DNA of 37,506 bases from Pseudomonadota bacterium (GTDB taxonomy: Bacteria > Myxococcota_A > Polyangia > Polyangiales > JAKSBK01): positions 1-37,506 of the forward strand of contig JAKSBK010000336.1 of the NCBI GenBank assembly GCA_022361155.1, in the 5' to 3' direction. This document shows positions 7,179 to 33,848 of this stretch, piece by piece. A program made the translations under genes and the position numbers. Below the pieces are notes generated by a model that searched no databases, had not been told where the DNA came from, and saw nothing but the letters and a program-made list of their open reading frames with translations. Every line of letters starts with the position of its first letter. The first letter of the stretch is position 1.

Positions 7179-7252
7179 TCGCCACCGGGCCTGCGCCAGG
7201 AATCGGGTTCCCCAGCGCCTCGCCGACTATCCAAGACGGGCTCTGTCTGCTA

Positions 7253-7410
7253 AGGACCCGCCACACAATAACCTGCCCACCTCGCAGGCCCCAAAACGCC
7301 GCTGGCCGTGTTGCTCCTCCTCGAAATACCCGCAGTATCCCTCGTCGTCGCGTCTTGCCGGCGTCGTCCGGTCCTGTGGGATCTGCACAGGTTATTGTGT
7401 GGCGGGTCCT
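7253..7410. mobile_element. MITE-like inverted-repeat element, copy A
   Basis: 158-bp non-coding unit with a perfect 23-bp inverted repeat at its ends (7253-7275 and 7388-7410; the left end begins AGGACCCGCCACAC). The interior is the reverse complement of copy B at 33704-33848, with about 11-13 extra bases in the middle. Next to the right arm is a sub-terminal palindrome (CCTGTG...CACAGG, 7373-7390). No coding capacity and no obvious target duplication. It ends 30 bp before the GTG start of the sensor kinase (12 bp before an alternative ATG). The structure suggests a non-autonomous transposable element; no transposase for it is present in the window. Confidence 0.8.
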
Positions 7411-7440
7411 AACCGCGGGCCGATGAACGAGGAGGACGAT

Positions 7441-15522: not shown

Positions 15523-15567
15523 AGGGACCCGCCACACACCGACCTGTGCAGATCGCACAGGACCGGG
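15523..15567. mobile_element. Decayed end of the MITE-like element, copy C
   Basis: 45 bp matching the left end of copy B (33704 onward): the arm GGGACCCGCCACACACCGAC instead of the intact arm, then the sub-terminal palindrome CCTGTGCAGATCGCACAGG and GACCGGG. The rest of the element and the right arm are absent. It lies 39 bp upstream of the PEGA gene start, in the divergent gap 15446-15606. A short inverted repeat CTGGT-tgc-ACCAG follows at 15568-15580. Confidence 0.7.
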
Positions 15568-33703: not shown

Positions 33704-33848
33704 AGGACCGGCCACACAATAACCTGTGCAGATCGCAGGGGACCGGGAGTCGCTAGCAAGGCGCGACGACGAGGAATTTCGAGGAGGGGCAACACAGCCA
33801 GCGGCGTTTGGAGCCTGGGAGTGGGCAGGTTATTTTGTGGCGGGTCCT
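33704..33848. mobile_element. MITE-like inverted-repeat element, copy B
   Basis: 145-bp non-coding unit with 23-bp terminal inverted repeats (33704-33726 and 33826-33848, two mismatches between arms). The interior aligns to the reverse complement of copy A along its length (shared GCGACGACGAGG, TTTCGAGGAGG, GCCAGCGGCGTTT) but is 13 bp shorter. It ends 11 bp before the ATG at 33860. Both full copies are followed on the right by AAC. It occupies most of the 239-bp gap 33621-33859. Confidence 0.8.

Follow-up and report, generated by a model that had tools for sequence, protein, structure and literature searches.

The window analysed here, the whole stretch of 37,506 nucleotides of contig JAKSBK010000336.1 (assembly GCA_022361155.1, Pseudomonadota bacterium), contains a short palindromic sequence that raises two questions: whether it is a transposon that has been mobilised, and what its interior does. 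The initial annotation had described a 158-bp non-coding unit with perfect 23-bp ends and had read it as a mobilised non-autonomous transposon. The unit is real, although its exact size is 156 bp and its terminal inverted repeats (TIRs) are 22 bp long, because the A at 7253 and the T at 7410, counted as the 23rd pair, are part of a TAA target duplication. We have found that positions 7254-7409 are a copy of a dispersed, mobilised non-autonomous MITE-like family. As a MITE the element is ordinary, and the surprising part is the structured core that it shares with other elements.

This first copy (7254-7409, minus strand) is non-coding and consists of a single long imperfect palindrome with the termini GGACCC...GGGTCC, each strand of which folds to one long hairpin (-88.8 kcal/mol and z -8.3 for the minus strand, z -7.8 for the other). 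Its left TIR (7254-7275, plus strand) reads GGACCCGCCACACAATAACCTG, and the right one (7388-7409, minus strand) is the exact complement. Outside them lie the two TAA copies of the target-site duplication, at 7251-7253, assigned from the sequence and from the statistics of the whole family, and at 7410-7412, assigned from the sequence. The conserved structured core occupies 7297-7364 on the minus strand (73.8 bits and E 3.9e-15 with model R2, together with the covariation and the mismatch ladder described below), and its strands, CAAGRCGCGACGACGA and GAGGAGGAGCAACRC, flank the hairpin GGRATAC-N5-GTATTTC.

With up to three mismatches allowed, the 22-bp arm is found five times in the window, against 0.00 expected in shuffles. 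The interior had been said to recur inverted at 33704-33848, and we were able to delimit there a full second copy at 33705-33847, which lies in the inverse orientation with its GA strand on the plus strand, is 82% identical to the first along its full length, has one mismatch per arm and is flanked by GAA and TAA. Its core (33750-33806, plus strand) scores 58.4 bits, and the copy measures only 143 bp, its apical, central hairpin lacking 11 model positions. Both copies of that earlier listing are thus real, but a third, one-armed fragment was overlooked at 15525-15567 (plus strand), a truncated copy with one arm and ∼20 bp of subterminal sequence that has lost the core. Elsewhere in the window, eight repeats with 153-bp spacing (62-72% alike) lie at 264-1438 within an open frame, probably encoding a surface protein in which Cys-rich units are repeated.

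Mobility is best judged in the genome as a whole, a 5.4-Mb MAG assembly of 608 contigs. BLASTN of the element detected further copies, with at least 51 matches when 40 of 183 candidates were scored, and a covariance model of the interior gave at least 133 matches with 150 of 2,085 candidates scored. In the assembly, 43 matches to the arm GGACCC... were counted and 21 to its variant GGCTCC..., these two sets overlapping, while a third variant, GGGCCCGCGGAAGAATAACTCGT, is much commoner (172 matches). Among the 75 copies in which both ends and flanks are present, 66 are exactly 155 bp long, and the 3-bp flanks are identical in 43, against 17.6 expected and a maximum of 28 in 2,000 random re-pairings; identity over 4 bp is found in none of the 75. 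The left flanks of these copies are TTA (29), TAA (22), TCA (3) and TGA (2), plus CAA and TTG, and the targets overall are foremost TTA and TAA, then CAA, TTG, TCA and TGA. Copies occur in both orientations and are intergenic with respect to predicted genes in 72 of the 80 with enough flank. The point of insertion is often 1-4 bp away from where a predicted gene ends, seemingly within or next to a stop codon that the duplication restores; such a position is expected of TNA targets in a GC-rich genome. The family therefore combines TIRs, a short uniform non-coding unit, target-site duplication and dispersed multicopy occurrence, as MITEs do, and its dispersal, fixed length, conserved TIRs and 3-bp duplications support the initial reading of a transposon family that was formerly mobile.

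No autonomous element with the same arms was found in the 608-contig assembly. Its four PF01609 transposase genes are not flanked by the arms of the element, the DUF4096 (PF13340) transposase has no match in this genome, though a partner may lie elsewhere, and the unpaired single arms of this genome and of a second genome all lead into truncated MITEs. An all-against-all comparison of the ORFs around core loci yielded only common families (kinases, ABC ATPases and Cys-rich proteins) and no transposase. The missing partner is weak evidence, since multi-copy ISs collapse in short-read MAGs and their contigs may be absent. Insertion with a 3-bp TNA duplication is the rule for the IS1031 type of the IS5 family, and CTAG or TA flanks are the rule for the IS630 type. 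As this family has the 3-bp TNA duplication, its mobiliser could, judged by the target-site duplication, be of the IS5/IS1031 type.

According to the initial annotation the interior of the element recurs among copies, which is correct, but a structured core common to unrelated MITE families in other phyla had gone unnoticed. Read on the GA strand, this core is ...CAAGG-C-GC-GA-C-GA-C-GA-[GGAATAC N5 GTATTTC]-GA-G-GA-G-GA-GC-AA-C-GCAG..., that is, a 7-bp hairpin atop three tandem G.A/A.G mismatch steps with single C-G pairs between them. Below these come a GC/AA mismatch step and more conserved loop strands, and the long palindromic stem encloses the whole. The conserved internal-loop strands are CAAGGCGCGA and GAGCAACGCAG. 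Among 52 distinct rows, GA stands exactly opposite GA in 28, 34 and 32 at the three ladder steps, and GC opposite AA in 31 at the next step. In the founding R1 alignment 94.9% of pairs are standard and six pairs are changed on both sides, a result matched by none of 500 shuffles. The wider set of model hits, whose alignment A2 was built with a model already holding the structure and includes some founding loci, have 95.8% standard pairs, double changes at all 12 pairs and 91 double-changed cells against 16.6 shuffled, and the signal is abolished by sliding the partners. One hairpin pair is kept as G-U in 44 of the 52 rows, which speaks for RNA, or for single-stranded DNA in which a G-T is tolerated, rather than for a double-stranded site. 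Only one strand would be meaningful, because the complementary strand would show C/T mismatches. Conservation and covariation together show the interior to be a conserved structured core, predicted to act on one strand only. Rfam gave no match at the gathering score and no relevant one at E<=5, and a literature search on the core sequences and on MITEs of myxobacteria or Desulfobacter, with subscription journals and ISfinder outside it, found no description.

The core extends well beyond this genome. Query positions 58-123 match genomes of further families in its order, where this stretch sits in palindromes whose ends are quite unlike those seen here, and a scan of 84,980 genomes with the exact core pattern returned 36 stretches, including three protein-coding coincidences (loci L103, L109 and L118), which were dropped because they look protein-coding. 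The myxobacterial stretches belong to Sandaracinaceae, Polyangiaceae, Kofleriaceae and other records, and those beyond to Desulfobacteraceae and other deltaproteobacterial MAGs, one Acidobacteria MAG and one Clostridia MAG; as the cross-phylum records are mostly MAGs, some of these assignments could be binning errors. Covariance models with strict filters detected the core in 44 of 284 genomes of its own phylum, Myxococcota, and in 33 of 198 of the phylum of the Desulfobacteraceae record. Single MAGs hold at least 145, at least 78, at least 10 (Clostridia) and at least 9 (Acidobacteria) core copies, and exact matches were absent from viral contigs (IMG/VR) and plasmids (PLSDB). In the Proteobacteria KR11 genome (at least 145 copies in 4.5 Mb), where the ends are GAGCCACTATCAAA, many contigs break within the element. 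At another locus (L023:814-1610) two cores stand in tandem, back to back (GAGGAGGAAAAGGCGCGACGACGAGG), as if elements had nested or recombined.

The recurrence of the core in unrelated mobile sequences across phyla suggests that the fold itself may help them to spread. A rather doubtful alternative is that we are looking at one ancient element, transferred horizontally between phyla, whose ends have diverged and whose core is conserved through binding a single transposition or host factor, so that no independent module would exist. The loop strands are indeed strongly similar across phyla, and two end classes recur, one with GGG(C/T)(C/T)CG ends and TNA triplets at its flanks, the other with AGTG-type ends lying in or near CTAG. 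But over the 20-nt arms of 18 end types mean identity is 34%, near random, against 64% for the core strands, and in one genome the same core is enclosed by two end types that are unrelated and differ in their flanks. In the case of the present genome, the core lies inside MITEs of three further end types; those ending in GGCTCGAGTTCAGCAC / GGCTCGAGTTCAGCACTTTT (L303, L302 and L211:2248-2315) have the same core strands with a different apical hairpin, and one copy with GGCTCGAGTTCAGCAC ends (L303) is flanked by CTA and TAG. At L211:1501 onward and L213:161 onward, elements with GGGCCC ends (GGGCCCGCGGAAG) have a different interior, in which the core-like hairpin is no more than weak (20.6 bits). 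TIRs that are unrelated and target rules that apparently differ, all around one core, point to an independent module that would be kept while the ends are exchanged. It is scarcely credible that the core is tolerated filler, a mismatch-rich centre that only protects a 155-bp palindrome from loss by cruciform or hairpin cleavage and whose similarity is incidental: every family is a long palindrome with an interrupted centre, yet a plain interruption would not keep ∼30 specific unpaired nucleotides conserved from phylum to phylum.

What the core is selected for could also be sought in the host or in a protein. It might be a host-beneficial RNA element (a terminator, an mRNA stabiliser or an attenuator), the MITE being its vehicle and copies being retained for regulation, and the conserved structure with its G-U pair, the mostly intergenic copies that often abut stop codons and the action of other MITEs (NEMIS and ERIC) on mRNA (PMC2229807) would fit such a role. 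We consider it unlikely, because orientation relative to the flanking genes has no clear bias (15 same-sense tandem, 23 antisense tandem, 15 convergent and 19 divergent) and no recurrent gene was found beside copies among the core loci compared. Moreover, in 50 copies of the GGGCCC subfamily the core diverges from the consensus by 0.059 and the element overall by 0.070, and in 17 GGACCC/GGCTCC copies these values are 0.063 and 0.082, core and arms both being biased towards conservation since the copies were found via them; within the genome the core evolves no slower than the rest, and it is not clearly better kept after insertion. Even decay, roughly even orientation and the lack of a recurrent neighbour suggest that the core matters in the multiplication of the element and not to the host. 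Very improbable is a coding remnant of an ancestral transposase left by internal deletion, for which the motif DDEEYxxYFEEE in one frame, a frame open across the core in this genome and in the Clostridia copies, and the three short-pattern hits that look protein-coding in other genomes could be adduced. We rejected it on the covariation, as paired substitutions (TAC..GTA to TGC..GCA) preserve the helix while altering the residues, and on the stop codons that stand right after the core in several families; in addition, the hairpin is swapped wholesale with the loop strands unchanged, and the core is situated in a long palindrome.

We favour, with a probability of about 0.7, a high-copy ∼155-bp palindromic MITE family that is mobilised in trans and carries an independent structured core selected during multiplication. 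A trans-acting transposase would recognise the 22-bp TIRs and, duplicating 3 bp, insert the element at TNA trinucleotides, which are often stop codons in this GC-rich genome; this mobiliser would be a DDE transposase, perhaps one of the IS5/IS1031 type. Since the search brought up neither an autonomous element nor a transposase bearing these ends, we infer both the mobiliser and the role of the core, which would serve the spread of the element as a single-stranded structure and not the host. The core would be kept as a separate module during the exchange of element ends, and most likely it is selected while elements multiply, in cis, as a transcript or as unwound DNA. A transposition enhancer, a strand-specific hairpin recognised in replication-linked transposition and a cis-acting transcript are candidates for its mode of action. 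More tentatively, this RNA or ssDNA module, hitherto undescribed, could be an independent selfish component, passed between or kept by transposon families that differ in their ends and in their transposases, across several bacterial phyla, and required in cis for their proliferation.

It is poorly understood how bacterial MITEs reach copy numbers in the hundreds when no partner is visible. If one folded core were needed by MITEs of different transposase types, this would point to a common factor, which might be a protein that binds tandem G-A helices, a transcript or an ssDNA step linked to replication, and the covariance model could then be used to annotate repeats still without a name in Myxococcota, Desulfobacterota and other phyla.

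Among known systems, derivatives of the IS5 family (IS1031 type) share the 3-bp TNA duplication, and those of the IS630 type the CTAG/TA flanks of the AGTG-end class; unlike both, the present family has no partner transposase that we could find, nor is there a DUF4096 match in its genome. To the best of our knowledge, such a core has not been described for the IS5/IS1031 or IS630 families. REP/REPIN sequences (RAYT) and CGTC-tagged REPs are likewise high-copy palindromes in several phyla, no transposase is known for CGTC-REPs either, and some REP dimers lie within larger palindromes (Di Nocera et al. 2013, PMC3733652). In contrast to their 20-40 bp and tetranucleotide tag, the family described here has 155 bp with TIRs, a 3-bp duplication and conserved internal-loop strands. 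Membership among the GTAG REP/REPINs is not supported, as the consensus strands carry no GTAG tag, and membership among the CGTC-tagged REPs, which have a stem beginning with AT and a CCA tail (PMC3733652), was ruled out because the stem does not start with AT and there is no CCA tail. There is a general likeness to the bacterial MITEs Correia/NEMIS, ERIC, RUP, Nezha and Chunjie, which are non-coding, 70-300 bp long and dispersed in intergenic copies with TIRs and target-site duplications, and whose transcripts would also fold into long hairpins; but each of these belongs to one genus or lineage and has one TIR type, whereas here the core is common to many TIR types in several phyla. The Correia element contains an IHF site, as cited in PMC2229807, and so resembles our family in being a 155-bp MITE with a functional motif at its centre, although that site is double-stranded and the core described in this work is predicted to be a single-strand structure.
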